A DNA stretch of 64,000 nt from Vicinamibacterales bacterium. Its GTDB lineage: Bacteria > Acidobacteriota > Vicinamibacteria > Vicinamibacterales > 2-12-FULL-66-21. This document shows positions 44,041 to 64,000 of this stretch, in pieces (position 1 is the first letter of the stretch; each line of letters begins with the position of its first letter). A program made the translations under genes and the position numbers. Below the pieces are notes generated by a model, which ran no database searches, was not told the DNA's origin, and saw only the letters and a list, made by a program, of their open reading frames with translations. The DNA is taken from contig DASSPH010000108.1 of assembly GCA_035699745.1 (NCBI GenBank), positions 1 to 64,000 on the forward strand, written 5' to 3'.

Positions 44041-44052
44041 GTCGCCATCGCT

Positions 44053-44058
44053 TACAAT
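44053..44058 (+). promoter_or_regulatory. candidate -10 (TACAAT) of the second UbiB-like gene
   Basis: TACAAT sits 12 bases before the ATG at 44071 within the 30-bp divergent gap, again implying a very short leader. Confidence 0.4.
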
Positions 44059-44070
44059 GCGGCCATCGTC

Positions 44071-45666: not shown

Positions 45667-46595
45667 TGTTCGGGTGCTTCCCCTGGCATTCAATGAGCGC
45701 ATGGCCACCGCCGCCGCTGCCCGTCGTCGAAGTGGCGGCAGGCCGTCCACCCCGCTATCCACCGACGCTGGTGCTGTGGCGGCTGAAGCGCGCGTTCGAG
45801 AGCGCCGCCGGCCACCCGGTCGAGGGCGGACTGGTCGCGCTGCTGCGTCGCCTGGGCGATCTCGACGAACCGGTCCGGTCGTCGATCCTGAACGCCGTGC
45901 GGACGCTCGAAATGCTGGTCCAGGCCGCGGAACAGCGCCATGCGGGTGAGCGCGGGCGCGGCGCCGACAAGAAGCGCGAAGTCGTGGCCGCCGCGACGCG
46001 GTTGATCGGCCAGCCCTTTCCTGACGTGATCCACGGCGCCGATCCCGGGCTGCGCCGGATCGTCGAAGCGTTCTGCGGCATGGTCGTCGATCTGATTGTG
46101 GGTCTATTGAACGCGAACGGGCTGTGGACGATCCCTCCTGCCGCCCCCGCACCCGTGTCCGTCGTCACGCGCTTTCTGCGCTGGCTGCTCGGGTGGATGA
46201 TTCGCGCCCTATCGTTCCTGCTGGCTCTGGCCGTCCGGGCCCGTCTGCGCCTCGCCGGCTTCGATGACGAACTGCTCCGCGGAATTCCAGCGGAACTCGT
46301 GCGCGCGCTGCAACGGTCGCTGACTGCGCTCCGCGCGATGCTCGCCGAACTCTCCGCGCATCAGCGCGAGCTGGCCGGCTTCATCCAGGCGGTAGCGGTC
46401 GCCGTTCAGGAGGCGGAAACGTGGGTGGGAACGCCCGGCATCGAAAAACAGGCGCACGCGAGGCGGCTGATCGCGCTGTTCCTGCACGAACTCCGTGTGC
46501 CGGCGCCGGCACCGCTGATCGAAATCGCGATCGACGCCGTTGTGGACATCTTCAACCGGCGGGGCTTCTTCGTTCACCGCAGCCTGACGGCATAG
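45663..46595 (+). CDS. hypothetical protein coupled to a UbiB-like kinase
   Basis: 310 residues. The N-terminus is Pro-rich (SAWPPPPLPVVEVAAGRPP). The rest is largely helical, with one strong hydrophobic segment (about 165-195, VVTRFLRWLLGWMIRALSFLLALAVRA) and amphipathic helices after it. No family is recognised. Its ATG overlaps the stop of the upstream UbiB-like gene by ATGA, so it is translationally coupled and probably acts with it at the membrane. Its last 44 bp overlap the convergent SDR gene. Confidence 0.7.
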   Translation: MMFGCFPWHSMSAWPPPPLPVVEVAAGRPPRYPPTLVLWRLKRAFESAAGHPVEGGLVALLRRLGDLDEPVRSSILNAVRTLEMLVQAAEQRHAGERGRGADKKREVVAAATRLIGQPFPDVIHGADPGLRRIVEAFCGMVVDLIVGLLNANGLWTIPPAAPAPVSVVTRFLRWLLGWMIRALSFLLALAVRARLRLAGFDDELLRGIPAELVRALQRSLTALRAMLAELSAHQRELAGFIQAVAVAVQEAETWVGTPGIEKQAHARRLIALFLHELRVPAPAPLIEIAIDAVVDIFNRRGFFVHRSLTA

Positions 46596-47598
46596 CCGGG
46601 CGCCGTCCGGTCGCGGACGACCACCACGCATAAACGTCCTCGATGGCGACGCGCAGCGGCGTCTGCGACAGCCCGAGCTCGCGAACGGCCTTCGCCTGAT
46701 CGTAGTAGACGCGTCGTGTCAGCAGCGGTACCGATTCCCACGTCAGGAGCGAACACGTCATGGGGTCGCGGCGCAGCGCGTTCATCAGACTGTTGGCGGC
46801 ACCAGCAAGGCGCAGCAGCGGCTGCGGCGCGAGCCCGTGCGGCGGCCTGCCGCCGACGACGTCCGCGATGAGCGTCACGAGCTCGCGATAGGTGACGTTC
46901 ACCGTGTTCAGGACGTAGCGTTCACCAATCCTCCCGCGCGCCATCGCACGCAGGTGGCCGTCGACCATGTCGCGTTCGGTCACGATGGCAACGCCGCCGG
47001 AGGGCACGAACGGGAGGCGCCGGCGCGCGACCGCGGCAACCACGCCGCCCCAGCTCACGCGCACGTCTCCGCCCGGCGCCATGACGGCGGTCGGATTCAC
47101 GATCACGGCGGGAAGGCCGCGCGCCACGTACTCCAGCAGCGCTTCTTCGGCCTTGCGCTTCGAGTGCATGTAGCTGAAGTCGAACCGGTCGCCGTTGTAC
47201 GTGAATTGCTCGGTCGCGATCGTTCCGTCGTCAGGAATGCCGACGGTGGAGGACGACGAGGTGTAGACCAGGCGCTCGACGCCGTGAGCCAGCGCCGCCG
47301 CCGCCAGGGTGGCGGTGCCCGCGACGTTCACGTCGAACATCTGGCGCCGCAGCCGGTTCAGCGGGACGGCGATGCCCGCCAGATGGTAGACGTGCGTCAC
47401 GCCTTTCAATGCCGCGCGGACGGCTTCGGCACGGCGAATGTCGCCCACTCGCCAGTCGATCCGGTCCGCCAGCGGCGCCAGCGCCGCCGGCGGCGGCGTC
47501 GACGGCAGCCGCAGCGCCGCGATTCGAGTGCCGTCCGCGACCAACGCCCTGACGATGGCCGAACCGAGGCACCCGGTTGCGCCGGTGACGAGAATCAT
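46552..47598 (-). CDS. NAD-dependent epimerase/dehydratase (extended SDR)
   Basis: 348 residues. The Rossmann start ILVTGATGCLGSAIVRAL, then VYHLAGIAVPLNR, YTSSSSTVG and the catalytic pair in YMHSK (Tyr-x3-Lys) are those of extended SDRs in the 3-beta-HSD/dihydroflavonol-reductase group. It would reduce a ketone or aldehyde or epimerise a sugar-like substrate with NAD(P)H. It is the last gene of the leftward operon, 6 bp after the aminotransferase. In the cluster it could reduce a keto intermediate; the substrate is not deducible. Its C-terminal codons overlap the convergent hypothetical gene. Confidence 0.88.
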   Translation of the reverse strand: MILVTGATGCLGSAIVRALVADGTRIAALRLPSTPPPAALAPLADRIDWRVGDIRRAEAVRAALKGVTHVYHLAGIAVPLNRLRRQMFDVNVAGTATLAAAALAHGVERLVYTSSSSTVGIPDDGTIATEQFTYNGDRFDFSYMHSKRKAEEALLEYVARGLPAVIVNPTAVMAPGGDVRVSWGGVVAAVARRRLPFVPSGGVAIVTERDMVDGHLRAMARGRIGERYVLNTVNVTYRELVTLIADVVGGRPPHGLAPQPLLRLAGAANSLMNALRRDPMTCSLLTWESVPLLTRRVYYDQAKAVRELGLSQTPLRVAIEDVYAWWSSATGRRPAMPSGCGERRSPAG

Positions 47599-47604
47599 GA
47601 TCCG

Positions 47605-49014
47605 CTACGCTCCCGCCTGCGATCGGACCAGGCGCGGCACGACGTCGAGCAGCACCTGGTCATAGCGCCCGACCGACGCACAGATCTGATCGAGGGCTTC
47701 GACGAAATAGTCGATCTGCTGCCGCGTCACCGCCAGCACGGGATAGACACGAAGCAGGTATTCGTCGGTCAGGCTCGGCGGCACGATGATCCGATGCTCG
47801 TTGAGCAGGCGCGACGCCAGATACGCGGTGACGATCTTCGGCGAGATGGCATCGATGAGCACATGGGACAGGCCGCTCAGCGGGTTCCAGCTCGCCAGAT
47901 CGAAGACGATGCCGATCATCAGTCCACGGCCGCGCACCTCCTTGATGCAGTGGTGGCGGGACTTCAGTTCCGCGAGGCGCGCGAAGAAGTACCGTCCCTG
48001 CTCGGCCGCGCGCTCGGGAAGCCGCTCCTCGAGGATGGCTTCGAGCGCGGCCAGACCGGCGACGCACGCGAGCGTGTTGCCGCTGAACGTCGAGCCGTGC
48101 AGGACGAAGCGCTTCAACGTGCCGTAGGCCTTGGTCCAGAGACGCTCCGACGTCGTGATCGCCGACAGCGGCATCAGGCCGCCGCCGAGCGACTTCGAGG
48201 TCAGCAGCACGTCAGGCACAGCGCCGACGTGCTCGAAGGCGAACAACCGTCCGGTTCTGCCGAATCCGGTCTGGACCTCGTCGAAGACGAGGAGCGTGCC
48301 GTGGCGCGAACACAGCTCGCGCGCGCGTGTGAGGTAGCTGTCCGCGGGCACGTGGACGCCGCCTTGCCCTTGAATCGGCTCGAGAACGAGGGCGGCGACG
48401 TCGCCGCGGGCGAGGCGCCGCTCGATCGCCGACGTGTCACCGAATGGGAGCTGCTCGGCTCCGGGCAGCAGCGGCTCGAACGGCTGAGTGTATTGGGGCA
48501 TCCCGGTGAGCGACAGCGCGCCCAGCGTACGCCCGTGGTAGGCGTTGCACGTCGACACGATGGCGCGGCGGCCGGTGGCGAGGCGAGCCAGCTTGATCGC
48601 CGCCTCCACCGCCTCCGACCCGCTGTTCTGGAAGTACGAGACGCTGAGCTCCTGCGGCAGCACCGCGGCGAGATTGTGCGCCAGTGCCGCTTCATAGGCG
48701 GACGGCGACAGCTGATGGATCATCGGCAGGCTGCCGTCGAGCGCCTCGCGAAGGGCGGCCACCACTCGGGGATGGTTGTGGCCAAGGTTGAGGCAGCCGA
48801 AGCCGTTGAAGAAATCGTGGTAGCGCTCACCGGCGTCGTCCCACAAGTACATGCCTTCGGCGCGCACATAGCGCCGCAGCAGCTTCAGCGGCTCCGCGGA
48901 TCGCGGAAAGATGCTGTTGATGTGCGCCGCATGGAGATCCGTGGTGCGGCGCGCGGACAGTGCGGCCACCTCGGCCAGGGGAATGGGCAGGGACTCCGTG
49001 GTGTTGATGGGCAT
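47605..49014 (-). CDS. class III PLP-dependent aminotransferase
   Basis: 469 residues. Motifs in order: YHDFFNGFGCLNLGHNHP, NSGSEAVEAAIKLAR (cofactor phosphate), CNAYHGRTLG, FDEVQTGFGRTG and LLTSKSLGGG with the PLP-binding Lys. This is the ornithine/putrescine/acetylornithine-type fold that moves amino groups to aldehydes or ketones. In this operon a natural substrate would be an aldehyde released by the thioester reductase encoded at 56588. The start at ATG 49014 follows GTGAGG at a good distance; upstream in-frame sequence belongs to the hydrolase gene on another frame. Confidence 0.93.
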   Translation of the reverse strand: MPINTTESLPIPLAEVAALSARRTTDLHAAHINSIFPRSAEPLKLLRRYVRAEGMYLWDDAGERYHDFFNGFGCLNLGHNHPRVVAALREALDGSLPMIHQLSPSAYEAALAHNLAAVLPQELSVSYFQNSGSEAVEAAIKLARLATGRRAIVSTCNAYHGRTLGALSLTGMPQYTQPFEPLLPGAEQLPFGDTSAIERRLARGDVAALVLEPIQGQGGVHVPADSYLTRARELCSRHGTLLVFDEVQTGFGRTGRLFAFEHVGAVPDVLLTSKSLGGGLMPLSAITTSERLWTKAYGTLKRFVLHGSTFSGNTLACVAGLAALEAILEERLPERAAEQGRYFFARLAELKSRHHCIKEVRGRGLMIGIVFDLASWNPLSGLSHVLIDAISPKIVTAYLASRLLNEHRIIVPPSLTDEYLLRVYPVLAVTRQQIDYFVEALDQICASVGRYDQVLLDVVPRLVRSQAGA

Positions 49015-49022
49015 GCTCTGCC

Positions 49023-49862
49023 TCACGAGGATGAATGCGACGCGATCCAGCCGGCGACGTCCGCGGCGATCGGGTAGCGGTCGCATTCGAACATCAAGGC
49101 GTGTTCCGCATCGGCGTAGACGCGTTCGGCGTACAGTCCTTCCGACAACGCTCCGCGAAGCAGCTGACGGTTGCGCGCGTTGTCGCAGATGGCATCCTGG
49201 CCGGCGATCAGATGCAGTACTGGCGTGCGCAACCGCGCCGCGTGCCGCGCGAAGGTGCGCTCGAGGATCCATGAGTGCATCAGGAGTCGCGCGGTCACCC
49301 TGGACAGTCGGCGTGGATCCGCCCGGATGTAGGCGAGCGCCGCCGCGCGTGTGGTGAAGCACTCGTCGTGCGTCACCGGCGTGGGCACCTGCGCGGCGGG
49401 CCGGCACAGCGCGCCGGCCAGCACCGCGGCGCGCCGCCACGCCGGGTAGGGATCGCGCAGGCAGAGTCCCGGCGCCATCACGATCAGTCCATGCGACTCG
49501 GCGGGGCAGGTGACGGCCTGCGCCAGCGCCCAGCGAGCGCCCCAGGAGAAACCGAGCACGAACGTCGGCAGCGAGGGCGTCACCTCGCAGAGGACCGTGC
49601 GCAGCTGCGCGAACAGACCGCGCGTTCCTGTCAGATCGCCGCGGCGTCCGTCGCTGCGGCCGGCGCCGGCCCGATCCACCGCGACGACCGCGTAGCCGAA
49701 CGCCGCGAGCCGCGCACCAAAGTCGTCGAACCAGCCGCTGTGGCTTTCGAGTCCGTGCAGCAGAACGACCCGCGCCCGCGGCGTACCGTTGTTCCAGAGC
49801 TGGTAATAGAGCCGCGCTCCGGGCGCGCCGAGATATCCCGCCGTCGCGGCCGCCGCCGTCAT
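49023..49862 (-). CDS. alpha/beta-hydrolase (lysophospholipase/monoglyceride-lipase type)
   Basis: 279 residues, no signal peptide. The oxyanion region VVLLHGLESHSGWFDDF, nucleophile elbow GFSWG (Ser), an acid in HLIAGQDAI and the catalytic His in DAEHALMFE form the full triad of the serine-aminopeptidase S33/monoglyceride lipase group. It would hydrolyse an ester or thioester. Its ATG region overlaps the stop of the upstream enolase-like gene by 4 bp. In the cluster it could act as an editing thioesterase or release an acyl group. Confidence 0.88.
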   Translation of the reverse strand: MTAAAATAGYLGAPGARLYYQLWNNGTPRARVVLLHGLESHSGWFDDFGARLAAFGYAVVAVDRAGAGRSDGRRGDLTGTRGLFAQLRTVLCEVTPSLPTFVLGFSWGARWALAQAVTCPAESHGLIVMAPGLCLRDPYPAWRRAAVLAGALCRPAAQVPTPVTHDECFTTRAAALAYIRADPRRLSRVTARLLMHSWILERTFARHAARLRTPVLHLIAGQDAICDNARNRQLLRGALSEGLYAERVYADAEHALMFECDRYPIAADVAGWIASHSSS

Positions 49863-51004
49863 TGCGGCTGCTCCTGCAGGAACTGACGCGCATCGGCACG
49901 CGCATGGCGCGCGACGCGTGACGCGACGACGGCAACGCCGAGTCCCGCGCCGGGCAGCCGAGTGGCGGCGCCGTTCCTCCCGAAGCGAACCGACGGATCG
50001 GTAATGTCCTCCGACAGCAGCAGGTCGCCAAACGATCCTTCCGTCGTCCCCGGTTCGGTCATCAGCGCCAGCTGCCGTCCGGCGGCCGCGAGGATGCCGG
50101 TCTCACCGACCAGGGCGCCGACGTGATAGCGCAGGCCGCGCTCACGCGCGAAATCGTAGAGCCGAAGCGCGTTGCGCAGCCCGCCGACTTTGCTGACGCG
50201 AACGCTGAAGCCGTGGCCGAGATGGTTTGCGCAGGCGTCTTCCGCCTCGGCGATCGAACAGACCGATTCGTCGAGCACCACGGGAATCGCCGAGCGCGCC
50301 GCCACCGCCGCGGCGCCGGCGCGATCCCCGCGGGCGGTCGGCTGCTCGACGAAGGCAACGTTGAACGGCTGCATCTGGGCGATCGCGCTCAGCGCCTCGT
50401 CGGCCCGCCAGGCGCCGTTCGCGTCGACGCCGAGTACCGCGTCGGGGCCGAGCACGGCGCGGCAGTCGGCGAGCGCGGCGAGATCGGCCGCGCCGAAACC
50501 CACTTTGAGTTTCGCCGTGCCCAGCCCTGCGTCGCGCAGGCGGCGCAGCAGCAGACGCCGTGCCGTCCGGTTCATCCGGCCGACGACTCCGGCATACGTG
50601 GCGGTCTCGCGCTCCTGGCGCCCGAAGATCTCGCTGGCCCTGACGCCGAATGCCTTGCCGAACGCGTCGATCACCGCCAGTTCGACCAGACATCCGGCGG
50701 CTCCGCCGGCGTCCAGCGCGCCTCGATCGCTTCTCGTGATCAGCTCGGCGAGCGCGTCGCGATCGCGAAGGTCGAGCGCCGCGAGAAACGGCCGGCCTTC
50801 CCTGAAGAACCACTCCGCCACGGCGTCGGCGGTTTCCCCGGTCACGTACGAACGGGCCAGGCATTCGCCGTATCCGACGGTGCCGTTCTGAAGCGTGAGC
50901 TTCAGGATCAGGTTGTCGGAGCGCTGCCGCGTCGCGGCCGCGTGGGCAAACGAGAAGCGGAACGGGATGGCGAGCCGGACCAGCTCCGCGGCGACTACCC
51001 GCAT
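49859..51004 (-). CDS. enolase-superfamily enzyme (muconate-lactonizing/dipeptide-epimerase subgroup)
   Basis: 381 residues. Catalytic pattern of the MLE subgroup: TAKLKVGFG (K-x-K base), GVDANGAW, AFVEQPTA and VVLDESV (three metal-binding acids) and VRVSKVGGL (second Lys base). The subgroup includes dipeptide epimerases, N-succinylamino acid racemases and o-succinylbenzoate synthase. The setting among amide-forming and amino-acid enzymes favours epimerisation of an N-acyl amino acid or dipeptide, but this is inference. It overlaps the GH3 gene upstream by 10 bp. Confidence 0.88.
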   Translation of the reverse strand: MRVVAAELVRLAIPFRFSFAHAAATRQRSDNLILKLTLQNGTVGYGECLARSYVTGETADAVAEWFFREGRPFLAALDLRDRDALAELITRSDRGALDAGGAAGCLVELAVIDAFGKAFGVRASEIFGRQERETATYAGVVGRMNRTARRLLLRRLRDAGLGTAKLKVGFGAADLAALADCRAVLGPDAVLGVDANGAWRADEALSAIAQMQPFNVAFVEQPTARGDRAGAAAVAARSAIPVVLDESVCSIAEAEDACANHLGHGFSVRVSKVGGLRNALRLYDFARERGLRYHVGALVGETGILAAAGRQLALMTEPGTTEGSFGDLLLSEDITDPSVRFGRNGAATRLPGAGLGVAVVASRVARHARADARQFLQEQPQ

Positions 51005-52707
51005 ACAGGTGATCGGGTGTCGAACGCCGCCACCGTCTCGTGGAACAGGGCGTCCGGGTTCAGGTGCTTGAACTTGATCTGCGCATCCCGTTTCGTACGG
51101 TGTGTCGCCTCGCGATACTGCTCGAAGAACCCCGGCGGCAGGAACACCACCTGTGTCGACGCCAGCCGACGCGATTTCCGCTTGCCCTCGAACTCGACGT
51201 TCAGGCGCGACAGCTCGGCATCGATCGCACCGGCCAGCAGGTTCGCCGGCACGGACGTCCCTGACGCGGGGCCTTCTACCATCACGCGATAGTGCGGCGG
51301 CTCCCCGAAGATCGGCAGCGCCGTGAAGAAGGTGGGGGTCACCCCGTGGGCCGACGTCGCGGCGGTCACGGCAGCGATGATCTGCGCTTCCGTCAGCTTT
51401 TCGCCGGTGAACGAGTAGCTGTTCGTCCCCTTCTGCACGAAGCGCAGCGCCGGCGTCCGGTTGACGAAGCCGCGGACCTCGACGATGTCGTCGATGTGAT
51501 AGCGGTAGAGGCCGCCCGACGTGGTCATCACGATGAAGTAGCGATGGCCTTCCTCGAGCTCGTCGCACAGCCGCAGGGGACCGGCGCTGCCCACGGCGCC
51601 GTCGATCTCGTCCACGTCGCAGAACTCGAACAGGTGGCCGGTGATGGCGAGCACCTCGTCGCCGGCGCCGGCGAGACGGAACGTGCCGAGCCCCTCGCTC
51701 GCGGCGTAACCGAGGTTGTACACCGGCACGTCGCCGAGCGACGCTTCCAGCGCCGGCAGATACAGGGCCGCCGACGCGTCCCGCCAGCAGACTACGGCGC
51801 GCAGGCGCGGCCAGACGCGGACCGGCGGAAGCGTGCCGCCGTCGGCGTCGCGAATGCGCGCGAGTTCACGCGCGCGCTGCGGATTCGGGCGGAGGCGGCT
51901 CGCGAGGCGCCGGCGAACGTCCGGATCGATCGGCGCGGGGGCGGTGATGCGCCCGTCCGCGATGTCCTGGATCAGCGACTCGGCGTGCTGATTCAGCTCC
52001 TTGAGCAGCAGTCCGAGCGTGCTCGGATTGGCCATCAGAATCACCCGCAGGTCGCGCTCGACCGCCATGCGCAGGATGACGTAGTACTTGGCCGCAAAGT
52101 CCTTGATCGTGAAGGCGTCGTAGGGAACGGCGTAGAGCGTGCGGACGAGCGCGTTCTGACTGAGATACGTGAGGCCGGACGCCGCTCCGTACGGCACCCC
52201 CGCCGCCGTCCAGCCCTCGATCGCCGGACTGACCATCGACAGGATGCCGCCCGGCCGGAAGATGTCGGGATGCTGCCGGTACAGATAGTAGAACTGCAGC
52301 GGCGTGGCGTACTCGCGGCGAAACGATCGCGTCACCGGCACGTACTTCGGTTCGTTCGTCGACCCGCTCGTCAGCAGGTACTGATACGGCCGCTCGGCGG
52401 TGAGCACCCCTGGAGCGCCGTCCATCATCTTCTTGATGTGCGGCCGCACCTGATCGTAGGTCACGATCGGCACGCGCGTCTGGAAGTCGGCGATGGTCCT
52501 GATCGACGAGAAGCCGTAGCGGACGCCGTATTCGGTGGCGGCGTTCGTTCGCAGGATGCGGTGCAGCCGTGCCGCCTGCGCGGCGCGCGGATCCGCGGTC
52601 GCGGCAACGAACCGGCGATGCTGCGCGCCCACGGTGATCAGCATCATCCGGCGCATCGTTTCCGTCGTGGCGGCCAGCGCATGCCGTTTGACGATCGACG
52701 GTGTCAT
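50995..52707 (-). CDS. GH3-family acyl-acid amido synthetase
   Basis: 570 residues. It belongs to the adenylate-forming GH3 family, known from plant auxin and jasmonate conjugation and found sporadically in bacteria. Motifs are LLTSGSTNEPKYVP (ATP loop), YAASEGL (adenine side), YRYHIDDIVEVRGF and SFTGEKLTE (C-terminal hinge). The usual reaction is activation of a carboxylate as acyl-AMP followed by attack of an amine. It lies between a decarboxylase that can supply an amine and an enolase-type enzyme, with ATGA coupling to the decarboxylase gene. It is the likely amide-forming step of this cluster. Confidence 0.9.
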   Translation of the reverse strand: MTPSIVKRHALAATTETMRRMMLITVGAQHRRFVAATADPRAAQAARLHRILRTNAATEYGVRYGFSSIRTIADFQTRVPIVTYDQVRPHIKKMMDGAPGVLTAERPYQYLLTSGSTNEPKYVPVTRSFRREYATPLQFYYLYRQHPDIFRPGGILSMVSPAIEGWTAAGVPYGAASGLTYLSQNALVRTLYAVPYDAFTIKDFAAKYYVILRMAVERDLRVILMANPSTLGLLLKELNQHAESLIQDIADGRITAPAPIDPDVRRRLASRLRPNPQRARELARIRDADGGTLPPVRVWPRLRAVVCWRDASAALYLPALEASLGDVPVYNLGYAASEGLGTFRLAGAGDEVLAITGHLFEFCDVDEIDGAVGSAGPLRLCDELEEGHRYFIVMTTSGGLYRYHIDDIVEVRGFVNRTPALRFVQKGTNSYSFTGEKLTEAQIIAAVTAATSAHGVTPTFFTALPIFGEPPHYRVMVEGPASGTSVPANLLAGAIDAELSRLNVEFEGKRKSRRLASTQVVFLPPGFFEQYREATHRTKRDAQIKFKHLNPDALFHETVAAFDTRSPVCG

Positions 52708-55227: not shown

Positions 55228-55229
55228 GG

Positions 55230-56297: not shown

Positions 56298-56587
56298 AAC
56301 GTACTCCAGTGAATCCAGCAGTGCGCTCGGAGCAGTCCGTCGTGAGTAGACGCGGATTCTGCGCTTGCCGTACGACGCATGTCAATGGTGAATCGAACGT
56401 GCGGGAGAAAAGATCGGAGCCGATGCGACTCGATCGTGCGATCGACGCGGGTATCACGTTCCCACAAGTAGCAACTACCCGCACCGCATGCTCAGCGTTA
56501 CTTTTTCGCTCGCCGACGATTTTTTTAAATCTCGTATTGAGCGCGCGCGCGGAATGAAGTACCGTGCCGTCCCTCACGAAGGATCGG
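56298..56587. other. divergent control region of the biosynthetic cluster
   Basis: 290 bp that must carry both operon promoters. It includes the only AT-rich patch nearby (GATTTTTTTAAATC around 56519-56532). No regulator gene is seen here or within the cluster, so control is probably by a distant factor. The exact hexamers cannot be called with confidence. Confidence 0.55.
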
Positions 56588-59500
56588 ATGCTGAACATGA
56601 ACTTCCGTTCCGACGAGACGGCGCGCATCGCCGCGCCATCGGCTGGTCTGGTGAACGCCGCCGACTCCGACGTGCGCGTCGCCGCGAACTTCACCGTCGA
56701 ACCGATCAAGTCCACGCTCGAGTTCTGGCTGCGCATGCTGTCGATTGCGGCGCCGATCACGTTCGCGCCGTACAACCAGGTGCTGCAGCAGCTGCTCGAT
56801 CCGGACAGCGCGCTGAATCGCGGCAGCTGCCTCTGCCGCGTCGTCCTGGTGCGGATCGCCGATTGGCTGCGTGATGCGCCGCGTGCGGGCGACGCCGAAC
56901 GCGCGCGCCTGTTGCACGACGTCACCGCGCAGTTCGTCGACGCGGTGTTCGCCGCCGCCGGCGGGGCGCCCCTGATCGTCGGCCTGTGTCCAAACCAGGC
57001 GCGGGTCGGGCCCGACGACGCGCGCTGTCACCGGCAGATCCACGCGCAGCTGGCGGCAGTGCCTGGGGTGGTCTGCGTCGATCTCGCCGAGACGGCCGCG
57101 CGCTACGGCGTCGCCGAGGTCGTGAACCCGCACGCTCAACACGAAGGTCACATTCCCTACACCTCTGCATTCTTCGTCGCGATCGGCACCCATGTCGCGC
57201 GGACGATCGCCGCGCTGCGGCGCCGGGCGCCCAAAGCGATCGCGGTCGACTGCGACAACACGCTGTGGCTGGGCAACTGCGGCGAGGACGGCGCCGACGG
57301 CGTCGTCGTGACGCCGTCGCATCGGCGCGTGCAGGCCCGGCTGCAGTCGCTGGCGCAGGGCGGCGTGCTGCTCTGTCTGTGCAGTAAGAACAGCGAAGCC
57401 AGCGTCGTGGACGTGTTTCGTCACACGCCGGGCATGGTGCTGCGGCTCGAAGACGTCGTCGCGCACCGCATCAACTGGCTGCCGAAATCGCGCAACCTCG
57501 CCGAGCTGGCGCGCGAGCTCGACATCGGGCTCGACACGTTCCTGTTCCTGGACGACAGCGCCAGCGAGCGCGCCGAGATCCGGGCCGAGTGCCCGGAGGT
57601 CCTGGTCGCTGAACCTCCGGACGACATCGACGAGTGGCCGGCGTTTCTCGACCACTTCTGGGTGCTGGATCGCATCAGCTACACCGAAGCCGACCGCACC
57701 CGCACCGAACAGTACCGCGTCCAGGCGATGCGGCGGCGCGTGCAGGCAACGTTTCCGTCGCTCGACGAGTTCCTCGCGCATCTCGCGCTGTCGGTCGACA
57801 CGCATCCACTCGACAGCGACGAGGTGGCGCGCGTCAGTCAGCTGACGGCGCGAACCAGCCAGTTCACGATCTCAGCCACGGCGTGTGGCGAGGCGGAACT
57901 CTGCCAATGGCTGGGTGACCCGCGGCGCGTCGTCGAAAGCGTACATGCGCGAGACCGCTACGGCGATTACGGCCTCATCGGCGCGATCGTCCTGCGGCTG
58001 GATCCCGGCGGCGCGGCGGCCGACCTGGAGCACTTCGTCCTGAGCTGCCGCGCGCTCGGCAAACGGGTCGAACACCGGATGTGGGACCGCGCCCGGGCGC
58101 TGGCCGCGCAGCACGGACGATCCGCCGTGCGCGTCCGGATCCGGCGAACGAGCCGGAATGCTCCGGCCCGTGAGTTCTTCGAACGGCTGGCGGCGGCGGC
58201 CGCGGCGGACACGAGTCAGGCGTGGTGCGACCTTCCCATCGATCTTGCCGCTCGCGACGGCCCGACGCGCGCGGTGGCCCCCGGCGCCACCGCCGGGTAC
58301 GAATCAGGGCGTGCCGACACGGACGTGTCGGTCGCGATCGGGCGCGAGCCCGCCGGGCTGATGAACCTGATCGCGCAGCGCTTCCGATCGGCGGCCGCCG
58401 TGTCGACGGCGATGCGCGCCGCGCACGCCGCGGGCGATCGCCCTCGCCCGGCGTCGGAGTCGCCGCTGCAGCAGGCGGTGGCCTGGCTCTGGGAAGATCT
58501 CCTCGGCGTGCGGTGCATTCGGCCGGACCAGCGATTCTTCGATCTCGGCGGCGACTCGCTGAGGCTGGCCGAGTTCGTGGCCCGGGTCCACGAGCTGTAC
58601 CGCGTCGGCATCTCACTCAGCGCGCTGCAAAACCCGAGCGTGGCGCAGGTCGCTGAACACATCGACGCGCTGCGGCGTCATCGCGAAACGCGCACCCGCG
58701 CGGAACCGGCGTTGGCGGCGGAAGTCGCGCTGGACCCCGCGATCGCGCGCACCGGACTCGCGGCGCCGGTCGTGCCAGCCCGCCGTGTGCTGCTGACCGG
58801 CGCCAACGGATTCCTGGGCAGTTTCCTGCTGGCCGAGCTGCTGCGCCGCTCTGATGCGATCGTCACCTGCATCATCCGCGCGCCGTCCGTCGCCGCCGCG
58901 AGCCGCCGCCTGGCGGACAGCCTGCGCCGCTACGGCCTTGCCATTCCGCCGACGCCGCGGCTCGAGGTGATCGCCGGCGATCTCGAGCAGCCCGACTTCG
59001 GCCTGCCCGCCGCGGAGGGGCAGCGGCTCGCGGAAGAGATCGAGTCGGTCGTGCACTGCGCGGCGCGCGTGAATTTCGTCTACGACTACCGCTCGCTGAA
59101 GCGCATGAACGTCGACAGCGCGGTCGACATGCTGCGGTTTGCCACGACCGGCCGGCTCAAGACGGTGCACTTCATGTCGACGCTCGGCATGCTGATGTCG
59201 ACGGAGCGGGCGTCAGGCTGCCGTGTGTATGAAGATGCGCCGCCCGCCTTCGAGCGCGGTCTTCCGAACGGCTACGAACAGTCCAAATGGGTGATCGACG
59301 CCATCATGCAGGCGGCGATCGGCCGGAATCTCCCGGTCACGATCTACCGACCGGGCATGCTGGTCGGCGAGGCGCGGACCGGGGCCTTCGCCAAGACCAA
59401 CGAATTCGCCGCGTGCATGATCAAGGGCTGCATCCAGATGGGAGCGGCGCCGGCAGTCGACACGGCGGTGGAGCTCGTGCCGATCGACTATGTGTCGCGG

Positions 59501-59878
59501 ATGATCGTCGAGATCGCCGCCCGGCCAGATTCGATCGGGCGCGTGTTCCACCTCGGCCATCCCGAACCGATTCATCTGTTCGATCTGCTCGCGGTACTCA
59601 GGGACGCCGGCTATGCCGTCGAGGCGATTCCCTTCAGCGACTGGAAGCGGCGCTTCTTCGATCTCGGCCCGGGCCTGCGCCAGAACGCGCTCTATCCCTT
59701 CGCCGACTTCATCCAGCAACTCGACGAGCTGCACTTGAGAATGCCGGACGTGGACGATGCCAACACGCGGCGCGTGGCCGGCGCCGCGGGAGTCTCCGCG
59801 GAGCCGATGGCGCTGGTCGTGCGCCGCATCCTCGGCTACTTCCAAGCCACAGGATTCCTCGCGCCGGTGTCGCGATGA
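56588..59878 (+). CDS. FkbH-like / ACP / thioester-reductase fusion
   Basis: About 1096 residues, start ATG 56588 after AAGGA (a GTG at 56564 is an alternative). Residues about 1-210 are an FkbH-type N-terminal region. Next is the HAD-IIIC phosphatase core with VDCDNTLW (Asp221, Asp223) and FLFLDDSASERAEI, followed by a GNAT-like segment (about 380-545, ARDRYGDYGLIGAIV). A carrier protein has FFDLGGDSL with the phosphopantetheine Ser657. The C-terminal NAD(P)H thioester reductase has LLTGANGFLGSFLLAELL (about 734) and catalytic YEQSK (Tyr896, Lys900). FkbH enzymes load a glyceryl unit from 1,3-bisphosphoglycerate on an ACP; the reductase would release it, or an acyl chain, as aldehyde or alcohol. 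I do not recall this exact domain order. Confidence 0.9.
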   Translation: MLNMNFRSDETARIAAPSAGLVNAADSDVRVAANFTVEPIKSTLEFWLRMLSIAAPITFAPYNQVLQQLLDPDSALNRGSCLCRVVLVRIADWLRDAPRAGDAERARLLHDVTAQFVDAVFAAAGGAPLIVGLCPNQARVGPDDARCHRQIHAQLAAVPGVVCVDLAETAARYGVAEVVNPHAQHEGHIPYTSAFFVAIGTHVARTIAALRRRAPKAIAVDCDNTLWLGNCGEDGADGVVVTPSHRRVQARLQSLAQGGVLLCLCSKNSEASVVDVFRHTPGMVLRLEDVVAHRINWLPKSRNLAELARELDIGLDTFLFLDDSASERAEIRAECPEVLVAEPPDDIDEWPAFLDHFWVLDRISYTEADRTRTEQYRVQAMRRRVQATFPSLDEFLAHLALSVDTHPLDSDEVARVSQLTARTSQFTISATACGEAELCQWLGDPRRVVESVHARDRYGDYGLIGAIVLRLDPGGAAADLEHFVLSCRALGKRVEHRMWDRARALAAQHGRSAVRVRIRRTSRNAPAREFFERLAAAAAADTSQAWCDLPIDLAARDGPTRAVAPGATAGYESGRADTDVSVAIGREPAGLMNLIAQRFRSAAAVSTAMRAAHAAGDRPRPASESPLQQAVAWLWEDLLGVRCIRPDQRFFDLGGDSLRLAEFVARVHELYRVGISLSALQNPSVAQVAEHIDALRRHRETRTRAEPALAAEVALDPAIARTGLAAPVVPARRVLLTGANGFLGSFLLAELLRRSDAIVTCIIRAPSVAAASRRLADSLRRYGLAIPPTPRLEVIAGDLEQPDFGLPAAEGQRLAEEIESVVHCAARVNFVYDYRSLKRMNVDSAVDMLRFATTGRLKTVHFMSTLGMLMSTERASGCRVYEDAPPAFERGLPNGYEQSKWVIDAIMQAAIGRNLPVTIYRPGMLVGEARTGAFAKTNEFAACMIKGCIQMGAAPAVDTAVELVPIDYVSRMIVEIAARPDSIGRVFHLGHPEPIHLFDLLAVLRDAGYAVEAIPFSDWKRRFFDLGPGLRQNALYPFADFIQQLDELHLRMPDVDDANTRRVAGAAGVSAEPMALVVRRILGYFQATGFLAPVSR

Positions 59879-60552
59879 CGAGCGTGACGCGCGCCTACCT
59901 CGCCCTGGCGGCCGTCGTCGTGCTGGCCGCGCAGTTCGCGTCGGCGGCCGTCTTCCTGGCGCTGAAAGGGCTGCCGATCCTGCTGCTGCTCGTCCTGCTG
60001 CAGCGATGGGGCGTCGCCGATGCCGGGGCACGCCGGCGGGTCGCCGGCCTGGTTCTGTCGCTGGCCGGCGGGCTGCTGATTGAAGTGTCGTTCATTGCCG
60101 GCACTGCGGTGTTCCTCCTGGCGCAGGCGGCGTACGCCTCGAGCGTGGCATGGCACCTGGCGGCCCGCCCGCGCCTGGCGGCCGGCGCGATGGCGGTCAC
60201 GCCGCTGACGATCGCGATCGTCGCGCTCTTCGCGATCGCCGTGCCGCAGCCGCTGCAGACGGTCGTGATTGCCTACGCGCTCGTCGAAACCGTGGTGATC
60301 GCCGGATCGCTCGCGACGTGGCTGTCGGCGCCGCGCGACCCGCGACTCCGCGACATGGCCGCAGGGACGTGGCTATTCGGCGTGTCGGATTCGGTACTTG
60401 CCGTCGCGCGATGGTGGACGCCGTTCGACGGCGCCGTGATCGTCGTTCAGTCGACGTATTTCGCCGGACAGTGGCTGATTGCCCGAAGCGCGCTGCGGCG
60501 CCAGGTGGAAGCGGTGGCGGACTTCGACCAGCGTGCCTGGCTTCAGGTGTGA
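59875..60552 (+). CDS. YhhN/TMEM86-family membrane protein (lysoplasmalogenase-like)
   Basis: 225 residues with about eight hydrophobic segments and little else. The pattern ASAAVFLALKGLPILLLLVLL, LSLAGGLLIEVSFIAG (conserved acid), FLLAQAAYASSVAW and LFGVSDSVLAVARW (conserved Asp near the C-terminus) is that of the YhhN family. Mammalian TMEM86B and some bacterial members cleave the vinyl-ether bond of lysoplasmalogens. Its ATG overlaps the fusion gene's stop (ATGA). The placement suggests that the cluster product or an intermediate is lipid-like, possibly with an ether or enol-ether bond; this is inference. Confidence 0.78.
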   Translation: MTSVTRAYLALAAVVVLAAQFASAAVFLALKGLPILLLLVLLQRWGVADAGARRRVAGLVLSLAGGLLIEVSFIAGTAVFLLAQAAYASSVAWHLAARPRLAAGAMAVTPLTIAIVALFAIAVPQPLQTVVIAYALVETVVIAGSLATWLSAPRDPRLRDMAAGTWLFGVSDSVLAVARWWTPFDGAVIVVQSTYFAGQWLIARSALRRQVEAVADFDQRAWLQV

Positions 60553-60562
60553 GCGTCCGACC

Positions 60563-62230
60563 ATGTGGAACACGTTTGCGGAGCTGCTCGCCTATCGCGC
60601 CTCCAGCGCGCCCGATCTGCGCGGCTACCGGTTTCTGCCAAGAACCGGCGACCCCCAGACGCTCGATTACCGCACGCTTTGCCGGCGCGCGGCCACGACG
60701 GCGGCGGCGCTTCTCGAGCACGCCAGGGTCGGCGATCGCGCGCTGATCCTGCTGCCCGCAGGCCTCGACTTCGTCGTCGCGACGTTCGGCTGCCTCCAGG
60801 CCGGCGTGATCGCCGTGCCGTCGACGATGCCCCATGTCGGCAGGACCGAACGGCGGTTCGACACCGTCGCGCGCATCGCCACCGACGCCCGGCCCTCGGT
60901 GGTGATGACGACACCGGCGCTCGTGCCCGTGCTTCGCGCGATGGACGGTCCCTGGCGGGACGTCCATTTCCTCACCGATCTCCAGTCGGCGGACGTCGAA
61001 GCCCCGCCCGCCGCGATCGATCCGCGTGCGCCGGCGATCATCCAGTACAGCTCCGGCTCGACGCGCACGCCGAAGGGGGTCGTCCTCAGCCAGCGGAACC
61101 TGCTCGCGAACATCGCGGCGGTGCACCGCAAGTTCCAGACGACACCGGCGAGCCACGGGGTGATCTGGCTGCCGCCGCACCACGACATGGGCCTGATCGG
61201 CGGCGTGCTCGGCCCGCTTTTCGGCGGGTTCGGCGTGACGCTCCTGTCGCCGGTTTCCTTCCTGCAGCAGCCCTTCCGATGGCTGAAGGCCATCTCCGAC
61301 GCGCGCGCGACGATCAGCGGCGGACCCGATTCCGCCTATCGCTGGTGCGTGGACCGGATCAGCGACGCGCAGCGGGCGTCGCTCGATCTCTCGAGCTGGG
61401 AGGTCGCGTTCAACGGGGCGGAGCCGATCCGGCCGGCGACGCTCGAGCGGTTTTCGGCCGCATTCGCCCCGTGCGGCTTTCGCAAGCACGCGTTCTATCC
61501 GTGCTACGGGCTGGCCGAGGCCACCTTGCTCGTGACCGGCCCTGATCGGACGTCGGGGTGCGCGCCGGCGGCGGCGCCGGACGGACGCATCGGCTGCGGC
61601 GGACCCGCTGACGGCCATGAGGTGCGCATCGTCCAGCCTGACTCGCTGCGCGAATGCCCCGACGGCGCGATCGGCGAGATCTGGGTGCGCGGTCCCAGCG
61701 TTGCCGCGGGCTACTGGAATGACGCTGCCGAAACCGCGCGCGCGTTCGGCTGGATGCTGGACGGGCGCGGGCCGTTCATGCGAACGGGAGATCTCGGCGC
61801 CGTCTCCGGCGGCTCGCTGTTCGTGACCGGCCGCCTGAAAGACGCCATCGTCATCGCCGGACGGAAGTACTGGGCCGAGGACGTCGAAGCCTCGCTCGAC
61901 GATCTGCATCCGGATCTGATGCACGGCGCCTGCGCGGCGTTCGCGGTCGATGTCGAGGGGCAGGAGCGGCTGGCGATCGTTCACGAAGTGAAGCGGCACG
62001 CGGCGCCGCAGCGTCACGACGATCTCGTCGACGCCATCCGGCGGCGCGTCGCCGATCAGTGGTCGCTCCCGGTTCACGCGATCAGGCTGCTCAAACCCGG
62101 CGCGCTGCCGCGGACCACCAGCGGCAAACCGCGACGGTTCGTCTGTCGCGCGGCGCTCGCCGCGTCCACCCTCGATGTCTGGACACCGACATCCGACCGT
62201 GCGTTTGAAGGGAGGGAGAGGGATGGCTAA
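60563..62230 (+). CDS. fatty acyl-AMP ligase (FAAL)
   Basis: 555 residues. Adenylation-enzyme motifs: QYSSGSTRTPKGVVLSQ (P-loop), WLPPHHDMGLIGGVLGPL (A4-like, with the HHDMGL block typical of FAALs), YGLAEATLLV and RTGDLGAV...VTGRLKDAIVIAGRKYWAEDVE. FAALs activate fatty acids as acyl-AMP and pass them to a carrier protein rather than to CoA. The acceptor is most likely the small ACP at 63158 or the carrier domain of the fusion. A 10-bp gap separates it from the YhhN gene and its end overlaps the desaturase gene by 8 bp. Confidence 0.93.
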   Translation: MWNTFAELLAYRASSAPDLRGYRFLPRTGDPQTLDYRTLCRRAATTAAALLEHARVGDRALILLPAGLDFVVATFGCLQAGVIAVPSTMPHVGRTERRFDTVARIATDARPSVVMTTPALVPVLRAMDGPWRDVHFLTDLQSADVEAPPAAIDPRAPAIIQYSSGSTRTPKGVVLSQRNLLANIAAVHRKFQTTPASHGVIWLPPHHDMGLIGGVLGPLFGGFGVTLLSPVSFLQQPFRWLKAISDARATISGGPDSAYRWCVDRISDAQRASLDLSSWEVAFNGAEPIRPATLERFSAAFAPCGFRKHAFYPCYGLAEATLLVTGPDRTSGCAPAAAPDGRIGCGGPADGHEVRIVQPDSLRECPDGAIGEIWVRGPSVAAGYWNDAAETARAFGWMLDGRGPFMRTGDLGAVSGGSLFVTGRLKDAIVIAGRKYWAEDVEASLDDLHPDLMHGACAAFAVDVEGQERLAIVHEVKRHAAPQRHDDLVDAIRRRVADQWSLPVHAIRLLKPGALPRTTSGKPRRFVCRAALAASTLDVWTPTSDRAFEGRERDG

Positions 62231-63161
62231 TCACAGCACCGTACCGGTAGTTTCCGGCATCGCCGCCGCCAACGCGCAGGCGTGGAGGACGGAACGGCGC
62301 ATCGCGCTGCTCGTCGTGATCGTTCCGTTCCTCTCGCTGATCGGCGCCATCGTTCTGCTCTGGGACAGGGGAATCCGGCCGGTCGATCTGACGATGCTGG
62401 TCGCCGGCTACGCGCTGACGGTGGTTGCCATTGGCGTGGGGTTCCACCGCCTGGTCTCGCACAAGGCGTTTTCGACGCCGCCGATCGTGCGGCTGGCGCT
62501 TTGCGCGCTCGGTTCCATGGCGGCACAAGGTCCGGTGTTGTACTGGGCCGCGATCCATCGGCGCCACCACGCGTGCGCCGACCGTCCGGGCGATCCGCAT
62601 TCGCCGTACCTCGCCGAACACGGCACGCTCGACTACGTGCAGGGATTCTGGCATGCGCACACGGGATGGCTGTTCAATCCCGATGTGACCGACTGGGTGC
62701 ACTACGTGCCGGACCTGCTCCGCGATCGCGCCCTGTTCCGCGTCAGCAGGATGTACGGCTGGCTCGTCGGCCTGGGGCTGCTCATCCCCGGCGCGATCGG
62801 TTTCGCCGTGACGCCCACGCCGTCCGGATTCCTGCTCGGGCTGTTGTGGGGTGGACTGGTCCGCATCGCGGTGACCCACCACACGACCTGGAGCGTCAAC
62901 TCGATCTGCCACATGTTCGGCACGCGGCCCTACCGGGTGCGCGATCAGAGCCGCAACAACTTTGTCATTGCGGTGTTCACGTTCGGTGAAGGGTGGCACA
63001 ACAATCACCATGCCTTCCCGAGCGCCGCGCTGCACGGCTTCAAGTGGTGGCAGGTGGACATCTCGGGCTACCTGATCCGCCTGCTGCGGCTCTGCCGGCT
63101 GGCCTGGGATCTGAAGCTGCCGCTGGCGGAGAAGATCGCCGGAAGGGGAGAACTGCGATGA
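62223..63161 (+). CDS. membrane fatty acyl desaturase (delta-9/SCD type)
   Basis: 312 residues from ATG 62223, preceded by GGAGGGAGAGGG. The three histidine boxes of the acyl-CoA/acyl-ACP desaturase family are present: HRLVSH, HRRHH and HNNHH (in EGWHNNHHAFPSAALHGFKWWQ). Two pairs of membrane segments separate them. It would put a double or, in some relatives, a triple bond into an acyl chain. Its position between FAAL and ACP genes is the order of JamABC-type cassettes, where the substrate is acyl-ACP. Confidence 0.92.
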   Translation: MANHSTVPVVSGIAAANAQAWRTERRIALLVVIVPFLSLIGAIVLLWDRGIRPVDLTMLVAGYALTVVAIGVGFHRLVSHKAFSTPPIVRLALCALGSMAAQGPVLYWAAIHRRHHACADRPGDPHSPYLAEHGTLDYVQGFWHAHTGWLFNPDVTDWVHYVPDLLRDRALFRVSRMYGWLVGLGLLIPGAIGFAVTPTPSGFLLGLLWGGLVRIAVTHHTTWSVNSICHMFGTRPYRVRDQSRNNFVIAVFTFGEGWHNNHHAFPSAALHGFKWWQVDISGYLIRLLRLCRLAWDLKLPLAEKIAGRGELR

Positions 63162-63463
63162 CCAAACAACAGGCCCGACTCGACGTGGATGAGGAAACGG
63201 TGCGTGCCTGGCTCTGCGCCGCGGTCGCACGGACGGCGGGTGTGGCTACGAATTCGATCGACTCGACAGCGACGTTCGCCTACTTCGGCTTGAACTCCCT
63301 CCAGTATGTGGATCTGACGGTGCAGCTCGAGTCGTGGCTGGGACGCGAGATTCCGCCAACCGCCGCCTACGATTTTCCGTCGATCGAGCTGCTCGCGCGC
63401 TATGTCGTGCATGCGCTTCCCGACGCGGCGCCCGCCGGGATCTCACCCGAGGCCTGGACCTGA
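63158..63463 (+). CDS. acyl carrier protein
   Basis: 101 residues. Helix 2 starts with the phosphopantetheine attachment site GLNSLQ (Ser47) in FAYFGLNSLQYVDLTVQLE, followed by the usual PPTAAYDFPSIELLARYV of type I/PKS-like carriers. Starting ATG overlaps the desaturase stop (ATGA). It probably carries the fatty acyl chain activated by the FAAL for the two flanking desaturases. The GxxS motif is asparagine-containing (GLNS) rather than the common GxDS, as is frequent in PKS/lipid carriers. Confidence 0.9.
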   Translation: MTKQQARLDVDEETVRAWLCAAVARTAGVATNSIDSTATFAYFGLNSLQYVDLTVQLESWLGREIPPTAAYDFPSIELLARYVVHALPDAAPAGISPEAWT

Positions 63464-63482
63464 CGCGGACGGAAAGGGAACC

Positions 63483-64000
63483 ATGGGCACCGAGCTTGCC
63501 GCTTCAGCGCCCGCTTCGCTGCGGACGGCCGTTCACGAGAAGATTCCACGCGACTGGTACGTACCCGACCGCCGGATCTACTGGACGGACCTCGTGGCGT
63601 CGGCGGCGATCGGCTGGGCCGCGCTGGCCGGCGCCGCGCTCAGCGACGCGATGCTGGTGCAGGCGGGGCTGGCGCTCGTGGCGACCTTCGCGCTCTACAG
63701 AGCGACGTCGTTCATCCATGAACTGACGCACGTCAACCGGCGTGAGCTTCCCTGGTTCGACGTCGCCTGGCACGCCGTCGCCGGCATTCCGCTGCTGGTG
63801 CCTCTGTTCCTGTATGAGGGCGTTCACCTCGATCACCACCGTCCGCGGCTCTACGGCACCGACGGCGATCCAGAATACCTGCCGTTCGCGCACCAGCCGG
63901 CGTGGATGATCGGTCTGTTCGCCGCGAGTGCGACGCTGCTCCCGATCGCCATGGTGCTGCGCTTCGCCGTGCTCGCGCCGATCTCGTGGCTCGTGCCGCC
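63483..64000 (+). CDS. second membrane fatty acid desaturase (3' end outside the window)
   Basis: 172 codons are visible and the frame is open at the window edge. ATG 63483 follows GGAAAGGGAACC. After a hydrophobic pair (about 35-70) come the histidine boxes HELTH and HLDHH typical of the FA_desaturase superfamily, then two further hydrophobic segments. It differs in box spacing from the first desaturase, so the two probably act at different positions of the chain. It lies 19 bp after the ACP gene. Confidence 0.85.
   Translation, partial: MGTELAASAPASLRTAVHEKIPRDWYVPDRRIYWTDLVASAAIGWAALAGAALSDAMLVQAGLALVATFALYRATSFIHELTHVNRRELPWFDVAWHAVAGIPLLVPLFLYEGVHLDHHRPRLYGTDGDPEYLPFAHQPAWMIGLFAASATLLPIAMVLRFAVLAPISWLVP

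Follow-up and report, generated by a model that had tools for sequence, protein, structure and literature searches.

Within the window, a 64,000-nucleotide stretch of a Vicinamibacterales genome (bases 1-64000 of contig C108, which has 77119 bases), two divergent operons form a mosaic of known pathway parts in an unusual combination. Judged by its protein families, the locus draws on sphingolipid-type components but lacks the condensing enzyme of sphingolipid synthesis. We tentatively read both operons as one pathway for an N-acylated amino lipid, whose sphingolipid-like assembly would need neither serine palmitoyltransferase (SPT) nor ketosynthase, a reading we hold as a working possibility and not as a probable outcome. 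The leftward operon (46552-56297, minus strand) comprises eight genes, which encode, from 56297 down, a membrane protein, a GNAT acyltransferase, a decarboxylase, a GH3 acyl-amido synthetase, an MR/MLE enolase-superfamily protein, an alpha/beta-hydrolase, a class III aminotransferase, and a short-chain dehydrogenase/reductase (SDR). The rightward operon, also of eight genes (56564 to contig position 67315, plus strand), encodes a fusion of FkbH, acyl carrier protein (ACP), and thioester reductase (FkbH-ACP-TR), a YhhN protein, a fatty acyl-AMP ligase (FAAL), desaturase 1, a stand-alone ACP, desaturase 2, an HSP20 protein, and a radical SAM protein.

A first-pass annotation of the same DNA had described eight leftward and at least six rightward tightly packed genes, all of which we recovered at the same positions, with overlaps of 4 to 38 bp (4, 10, 4, and 38 bp leftward; 4, 8, and 4 bp rightward). 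The remaining intra-operon gaps inside the window measure 2, 6, 8, 10, and 19 bp, and spacing across both operons ranges from -38 to +67 bp. Gene starts were set by reading frame, phase-specific GC, and start-codon context; the phase-specific GC pattern is strongly biased and tracks the assigned genes. The families named at that time (FAAL, GH3, two ACPs, thioester reductase, SDR, LysA-like decarboxylase, class III aminotransferase, MR/MLE, and two desaturases) were correct, and the list had missed the FkbH domain, the GNAT, the alpha/beta-hydrolase, YhhN, and the membrane protein. Expected active-site motifs are present in FkbH, both ACPs, the reductase, aminotransferase, GH3, MR/MLE protein, decarboxylase, FAAL, and desaturases.

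The sphingolipid connection comes from the GNAT. Relatives at E 1e-40 or better occur in 88 of 396 genomes of the phylum (own genome counted), and we examined 11 neighbourhoods of our own choosing, not a random draw. An alpha-oxoamine synthase (AOS) related to SPT lies near the GNAT in seven of these (L072, L073, L075, L076, L077, L079, L080), and none was found near it in the other four (L074, L078, L081, L082). The L080 AOS, the only one from these loci run against models, passes the SPT model NF047599 (520.6 vs 500), and the L079 AOS is 70% identical to it. The link to bacterial ceramide synthase (bCerS) rests on loci such as one on a Roseomonas marmotae plasmid, where a GNAT relative with 35.7% identity to the window protein has as neighbours an ACP, a class I/II pyridoxal phosphate (PLP) enzyme, a diacylglycerol kinase family protein, a FAAL, and an NAD-dependent epimerase. 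In two of the 11 loci (L072:5611-7185 and L073:2949-4493), the SPT-related AOS, as read from the sequence, carries an N-terminal ACP-like stretch in one frame and sits beside FAAL and GNAT genes.

No SPT was found by model search of the window's own genome, a 6.3-Mb draft of 110 contigs that is 100% complete and 1.47% contaminated. The single AOS match lies on C64; by model it is a glycine C-acetyltransferase (493.9 vs cut-off 460) and scores below all three SPT models (381.8/640, 311.8/500, and 260.8/670), and the L080 SPT used as a query had no match in the contig stretches of the cluster. We rejected a canonical sphingolipid cluster, since the model search found no SPT in this draft genome.

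Assembly-line enzymes are likewise missing from the surroundings. The first-pass annotation had noted the lack of ketosynthase and condensation domains, and neither turned up in Pfam scans that covered the cluster's proteins together with 12 frames reaching past the window (for condensation, PF00668 was not searched contig- or genome-wide). The ketosynthase family PF00109 has 21 matches in the genome, 15 of them on contig C32 and none on C108, and the FAAL is the sole match to the adenylation family PF00501 on C108. Extending the analysis past position 64000, into the 13.1 kb of contig beyond the window, carried the rightward operon to 67315 and revealed no polyketide synthase (PKS) or nonribosomal peptide synthetase (NRPS) next door up to the contig end at 77119. 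Elsewhere in the genome, C32:48706-155581 is a large region with the 15 ketosynthase matches and several AMP-binding domains in long frames nearby.

The FkbH domain of the fusion protein (residues 222-544; TIGR01686, 275.9 bits vs cut-off 146.65) is complete, spans model positions 2-319 of 323, and carries the DxDNT and CSKN motifs. It is followed by a PP-binding (ACP) domain at residues 642-700 and a thioester reductase domain at residues 742-1098 (TIGR01746, 273 bits vs cut-off 213.35); ATG codons at 56588 or 56597 are possible alternative starts. At E 1e-60, with at most four candidates scored per genome, no full-length relative was found among 161 other genomes of the order, 11 of which have partial matches, and a contig scan for close relatives only gave nine loci, all cyanobacterial, with the reductase or ACP-reductase part. 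Because the full-length protein was found in no searched genome, the whole cluster was found in none of them. The same order of domains nevertheless exists in other bacteria, there in assembly-line contexts. A search of 72,556 plasmid records gave 251 matches to FkbH-ACP-TR, two of which cover at least 80% of it; these two, from Niallia taxi and Paenibacillus polymyxa, show 25-28% identity over nearly the whole length. In Niallia taxi, the same order forms the C-terminal end of a PKS/NRPS protein; in Paenibacillus polymyxa, the match to the FkbH model is confined to positions 171-319 of 323, and the locus has a ketosynthase-annotated gene, unlike the window cluster. On Rhodococcus plasmids, FkbH ends one protein and the reductase lies in the neighbouring next one, the large protein being annotated as PKS in some records. 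We dropped the idea that the fusion is unique after these two distant plasmid proteins showed the same domain order. The earlier description of the cluster as "unlike NRPS/PKS logic" was also too strong, because assembly lines, too, load ACPs through FkbH and release products reductively, and the Niallia taxi counterpart ends a PKS/NRPS protein. In a literature search with poor coverage of subscription journals, no paper combined at least five of the terms FkbH, thioester reductase, fatty acyl-AMP ligase, aminotransferase, desaturase, and gene cluster. Among the matches listed, FkbH and thioester reductase were named together only in PMC7901079, and those on ceramide or bacterial lipids made no mention of aminopropanediol or glyceryl-ACP.

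Two parts of the leftward operon recur elsewhere as modules. Relatives of the GH3 protein (E 1e-50 or better) occur in seven other genomes of the order and three more in the phylum sample; we examined ten neighbourhoods, two of them from one genus, and left out two further copies in G071. An MR/MLE gene adjoins GH3 in eight of the ten (L064-L069, L039, L107) and in neither L108 nor L109, nor does it stand beside two weaker GH3 relatives (L070, L071). All eight pairs have a gene for an OlsE-like hydroxylase beside them, which in L068 and L039 is truncated where the contig stops; the best model for the L066 hydroxylase is the ornithine lipid hydroxylase OlsE (176.9 vs cut-off 475). No OlsE-like gene was found in L108, L109, L070, or L071. 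The window MR/MLE protein resembles dipeptide epimerases, muconate cycloisomerases, and N-acylamino acid racemases. It also has the KxK and second-lysine motifs, presumably the lysines on which 1,1-proton transfer depends. N-acyl ornithine is the product of OlsH (PMC12493201), so the obvious reading would be that the MR/MLE protein racemises the GH3 product. On a Streptomyces sp. SGAir0924 plasmid (L145), type I PKS genes and a gene of the aspartate aminotransferase family lie close to a GH3 gene, which hints at a possible additional role for bacterial GH3 enzymes in polyketide formation.

The second module pairs the GNAT with the decarboxylase. A search at E 1e-75 in the 396 phylum genomes returned the own genome and three others (G463, G273, G317; 41-46% identity), and in all three the GNAT gene is directly upstream of the decarboxylase gene, as in the window. 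These loci (L104, L105, and L106; G463:C58, G273:C52, and G317:C12) come from three families of the phylum. Common to all three are a lipid kinase (51-53% to L105) and proteins of the PEMT-DUF3419 (59-60%), Aldolase_II (66-67%), FtsX permease (64-71%), and ABC ATPase (61-65%) types; L105 also has an Omp85 protein, for which no counterpart was found in L104 or L106. We take DUF3419 to be the BtaA domain, which would place an amino acid headgroup on lipid, and the conserved locus looks like an amino-lipid pathway with export. The window decarboxylase scores 284.9 against the lysA model (cut-off 297.9) and has FPTFY and CHAAD where its three GNAT-linked relatives have LPTFY or MPTFY and CFASD. 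In the own-genome LysA on contig C83, RPMMY and CESSD are both intact. The Arg of RPxxY and the Glu of CESSD are, we assume, the LysA contacts to the distal end of the substrate, and all four decarboxylases lack both, so that by these motifs they look like a separate group. We rejected LysA identity for the window enzyme in view of the separate LysA in the genome and the differing motifs. We also dropped a D-specificity suggested by D-ornithine/D-lysine and diaminopimelate decarboxylase relatives, as BtrK, an L-glutamyl-ACP decarboxylase, belongs to the same group. In a GNAT tree of 16 rows, the window protein groups with the decarboxylase-linked GNATs at 96/96 (94/96 without the Roseomonas row), on long branches; we regard this as mild support for such a grouping. 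The adjacency of the two genes stands apart from the tree.

The catalytic steps that we infer from the families would run as follows. The FAAL would adenylate a fatty acid and load it onto the free-standing ACP, and the two desaturases would act on the ACP-bound chain or on the finished lipid. FkbH would probably load a three-carbon glyceryl unit from 1,3-bisphosphoglycerate onto the fused ACP, and the fused thioester reductase would then set it free in aldehyde form. A less parsimonious alternative is that the fused ACP receives a fatty acyl group, to be freed as a fatty aldehyde. The PigE-like aminotransferase would convert the aldehyde to an amine, and the ceramide-synthase-like GNAT would N-acylate an amine, either this product or one that the atypical decarboxylase of the same operon has made. 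A second building block, an N-acyl amino acid, would come from GH3 and be epimerised by the racemase-type MR/MLE protein. Joining of the parts may fall to the alpha/beta-hydrolase, acting as an O-acyltransferase in the manner of OlsI in ornithine lipid synthesis. Amide formation, which the first-pass annotation had assigned to GH3, need not depend on that enzyme alone, given the GNAT in the same operon. This reading is supported by the tight packing of the operons, the active-site motifs, the presence of two loading enzymes (FAAL and FkbH) for two ACPs, the established TamA/TamH route from acyl-ACP to amine, the sphingolipid-type settings of the GNAT and of the desaturase 2 relative, the lack of an SPT among the genome's AOS matches, and the recurrence of the GH3 and GNAT-decarboxylase modules. 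In its most far-reaching form, as a further route to ceramide-like lipids, glycerate from glycolysis would become glyceraldehyde on the FkbH ACP and then 3-amino-1,2-propanediol, which the GNAT would N-acylate with unsaturated acyl-ACP; the amino-diol would replace the serine-derived sphingoid base, and GH3, MR/MLE, and hydrolase would then add a second, N-acyl-amino-acid part. We consider this particular scheme rather unlikely.

Several observations weigh against a single amino-lipid pathway. The common product rests on divergent adjacency, since no searched genome has both operons. PLP decarboxylases require a free alpha-amine, so that an N-alpha-acyl amino acid from GH3 cannot be a substrate of the window enzyme; the GNAT and GH3 steps do not form one line. 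A tblastn comparison of the window SDR with the sphingolipid-type locus L141 gave nothing at E 1e-3; L080 yielded no match exceeding 60 bits, and L072 and L073 yielded weak ones. By these comparisons the SDR is not detectably CerR. The FAAL is 44% identical to one in a cyanobacterial PKS locus (L023), compared with 31-38% to those of sphingolipid-type loci and 33% to that of L141. The GH3 protein falls far short of the OlsH model (101.6 bits, cut-off 620), no OlsE-like gene was found in the window's contig stretches, and none of the five genes shared by the GNAT-decarboxylase loci, the lipid kinase and DUF3419 genes among them, is in the window cluster. The window GNAT itself has 28-31% identity to the decarboxylase-linked GNATs and up to 38% to other GNATs. 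In an approximately unbiased test, two of three alternative GNAT placements were not rejected (p 0.133 and 0.071; the third, p 0.023), and this result and the long branches weaken any firm placement with the decarboxylase-linked proteins.

The reductase and aminotransferase also allow a different product. The FAAL could load the fused ACP, the reductase release a fatty aldehyde, the aminotransferase convert it to a long-chain amine, and the GNAT or GH3 turn this into a secondary amide, with FkbH in another role or none. Exactly matching enzymatic precedents exist in tambjamine YP1, where a C12 acid becomes a C12 amine (PMC9594044), and in prodigiosin PigE (PMC8341465), PigE being the nearest curated model of the window aminotransferase; the Paenibacillus protein, which matches the C-terminal half of the FkbH model only, indicates that the domain order can exist without a full FkbH. 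Yet the window FkbH is complete in extent and motifs, and the gene string of the FAAL contains a second ACP, which renders loading of the fused ACP by the FAAL less parsimonious; we judge this route unlikely, though worth keeping in view. About equally doubtful is that two separate pathways lie side by side, the leftward genes (GH3, MR/MLE, GNAT, decarboxylase) for an amino lipid and the rightward genes for another fatty-acid-derived product. The GH3 and GNAT-decarboxylase modules do occur in relatives without the rightward genes, and both gene sets occur together in no searched genome. The first-pass annotation had held that scattering of the genes in relatives would speak against its cluster, and this is partly what we see, with modules occurring separately. 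However, the aminotransferase for the reductase's aldehyde sits in the leftward operon and the acyl-ACP supply for the GNAT in the rightward one, and the sphingolipid-type locus of Roseomonas marmotae keeps FAAL, ACP, and GNAT together.

That the locus makes ornithine lipids with GH3-type enzymes of the OlsH/OlsI kind and has extra tailoring genes seems improbable. Its GH3 and alpha/beta-hydrolase genes share an operon as in Singulisphaera (PMC12493201), and the OlsE-like hydroxylase stands beside GH3 in relatives. Against this are the low OlsH score, the absence of the words racemase, epimerase, and enolase from the main text of the OlsH paper (PMC12493201), and the fact that most of the cluster would be left unexplained. 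Least credible is a decayed or non-functional remnant: the lack of a full-length FkbH-ACP-TR relative in the other 161 genomes of the order would fit it, but the genes have uninterrupted reading frames, a strong phase-specific GC bias, and the expected motifs. The one-pathway amino-lipid reading remains the one we favour, with the reservations given.

The aminotransferase is matched best by the PigE model (443.9 bits vs cut-off 850; best stretch at positions 376-730 of 837), and at E 1e-90 it had no match in 125 other genomes of the order. In 27 aligned sequences of the membrane protein, H61, H117, Q121, H257, Y261, and H327 are invariant and D331 is nearly so, which may point to a metal site. 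Its structural model had a predicted local distance difference test score (pLDDT) of 49 at first and, with the 27 sequences, a pLDDT of 88.1 and a predicted TM score of 0.87; the fold had no significant match in the PDB (Foldseek best E 0.36; VIA-align best Z 6.3). Near its five relatives in the order (L087-L091), no other cluster gene was found at E 1e-4. The gap between the operons holds one promoter-like match on the minus strand, a consensus match only. Cluster GC (68.9%) is near that of the left (67.3%) and right (68.0%) flanks, with 20.8-kb windows averaging 67.6% (standard deviation 1.1), and composition thus gives no hint that the cluster was imported recently. Frames that extend beyond position 64000 encode the desaturase, HSP20, radical SAM, amine oxidase, SnoaL, TetR, and two Ser/Thr kinases; the amine-oxidase family protein, nearest HpnE, is the convergent neighbour, 6 bp past 67315. 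Near the cluster's left end, ABC1 kinase-like domains occur on both strands (42418-44373, minus; 42499-45666, plus), apparently in two divergent genes. At L080:12145-13548, a radical SAM gene of the HpnJ/PhpK kind directly adjoins the SPT gene; the window's rightward operon likewise ends in a B12-binding radical SAM gene.

Table 1. Features of the two divergent operons, with position, strand, and basis of assignment.
Feature	Position	Strand	Basis
NAD-dependent epimerase/dehydratase (extended SDR)	46552..47598	-	nearest curated model HpnA, under its cut-off
Class III aminotransferase	47605..49014	-	nearest curated model PigE; SKSLGGG motif
Alpha/beta-hydrolase (Hydrolase_4)	49023..49862	-	Pfam
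MR/MLE enolase-superfamily protein	49859..51004	-	Pfam, curated models, motifs
GH3 acyl-amido synthetase, all three GH3 domains	50995..52707	-	nearest curated model OlsH, motifs
PLP fold-III decarboxylase, LysA/DokD/BtrK group	52704..54131	-	Pfam, curated models, motif comparison
GNAT acyltransferase, bacterial ceramide synthase kind, 377 aa	54094..55227	-	Pfam and relatives
Polytopic membrane protein	55230..56297	-	no Pfam or NCBIfam match
Divergent intergenic region, 266 bp	56298..56563		between the two operons
FkbH-ACP-thioester reductase fusion, 1104 aa from GTG	56564..59878	+	Pfam, curated models, motifs
YhhN family membrane protein	59875..60552	+	Pfam
Fatty acyl-AMP ligase (FAAL)	60563..62230	+	best single-enzyme curated models are FAALs, all under cut-off; motifs
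Fatty acid desaturase 1, three His boxes	62223..63161	+	family models, motifs
Stand-alone acyl carrier protein, GLNSL motif	63158..63463	+	Pfam, motif
Fatty acid desaturase family protein 2	63483..64000, on to contig 64550	+	family models
HSP20 protein	between 64550 and radical SAM gene	+	Pfam
Radical SAM protein with B12-binding domain	contig 65363-67315	+	Pfam

Genome searches for sphingolipid makers use SPT together with bCerS and CerR (PMC11334938), and a ceramide-synthase-family locus without SPT would escape them. The two conserved pairs, GH3-MR/MLE beside an OlsE-like hydroxylase and GNAT-decarboxylase beside DUF3419, are compact units that could explain unassigned amino lipids. If FkbH-ACP-TR indeed feeds the transaminase, there would be a direct route from glycolysis to an amino-diol headgroup.

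Each known system that we compared shares some parts with the cluster. In tambjamine biosynthesis, the thioester reductase and class III aminotransferase of TamA/TamH turn acyl-ACP into an amine (PMC9594044). The window shares with TamA/TamH and PigE (PMC9594044, PMC8341465) an ACP, a thioester reductase, and a PigE-like class III aminotransferase; here, however, reductase and aminotransferase are separate and in opposite operons, the reductase is fused to FkbH-ACP, and no pyrrole product is expected. The FkbH glyceryl-ACP systems of tetronate and methoxymalonate (PMC7489565) have in common with it a complete FkbH with its own ACP, whereas in the window cluster no FabH-like, dehydrogenase, or PKS partners were seen and a reductase follows the ACP. 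Like Singulisphaera OlsH/OlsI (PMC12493201), the leftward operon combines a GH3 amide synthetase with an alpha/beta-hydrolase, by analogy a candidate O-acyltransferase like OlsI, but the GH3 is not OlsH by the curated model, its partners are MR/MLE and decarboxylase proteins, and no methyltransferase OlsG was seen in the cluster. The Caulobacter ceramide genes are spt, cerS, cerR, acpR, and aasR (PMC11324152), a set that the Roseomonas marmotae locus resembles. With such ceramide-type loci the window shares a GNAT of the kind found in sphingolipid loci, a FAAL, a stand-alone ACP, an SDR, and a desaturase (desaturase 2, with 51% identity to a desaturase encoded next to the GNAT gene in the SPT locus L079); it differs from them in that no SPT was found in the genome and its SDR is not detectably CerR, and to these ceramide-type parts it adds FkbH-ACP-TR, the aminotransferase, the decarboxylase, GH3, and MR/MLE.

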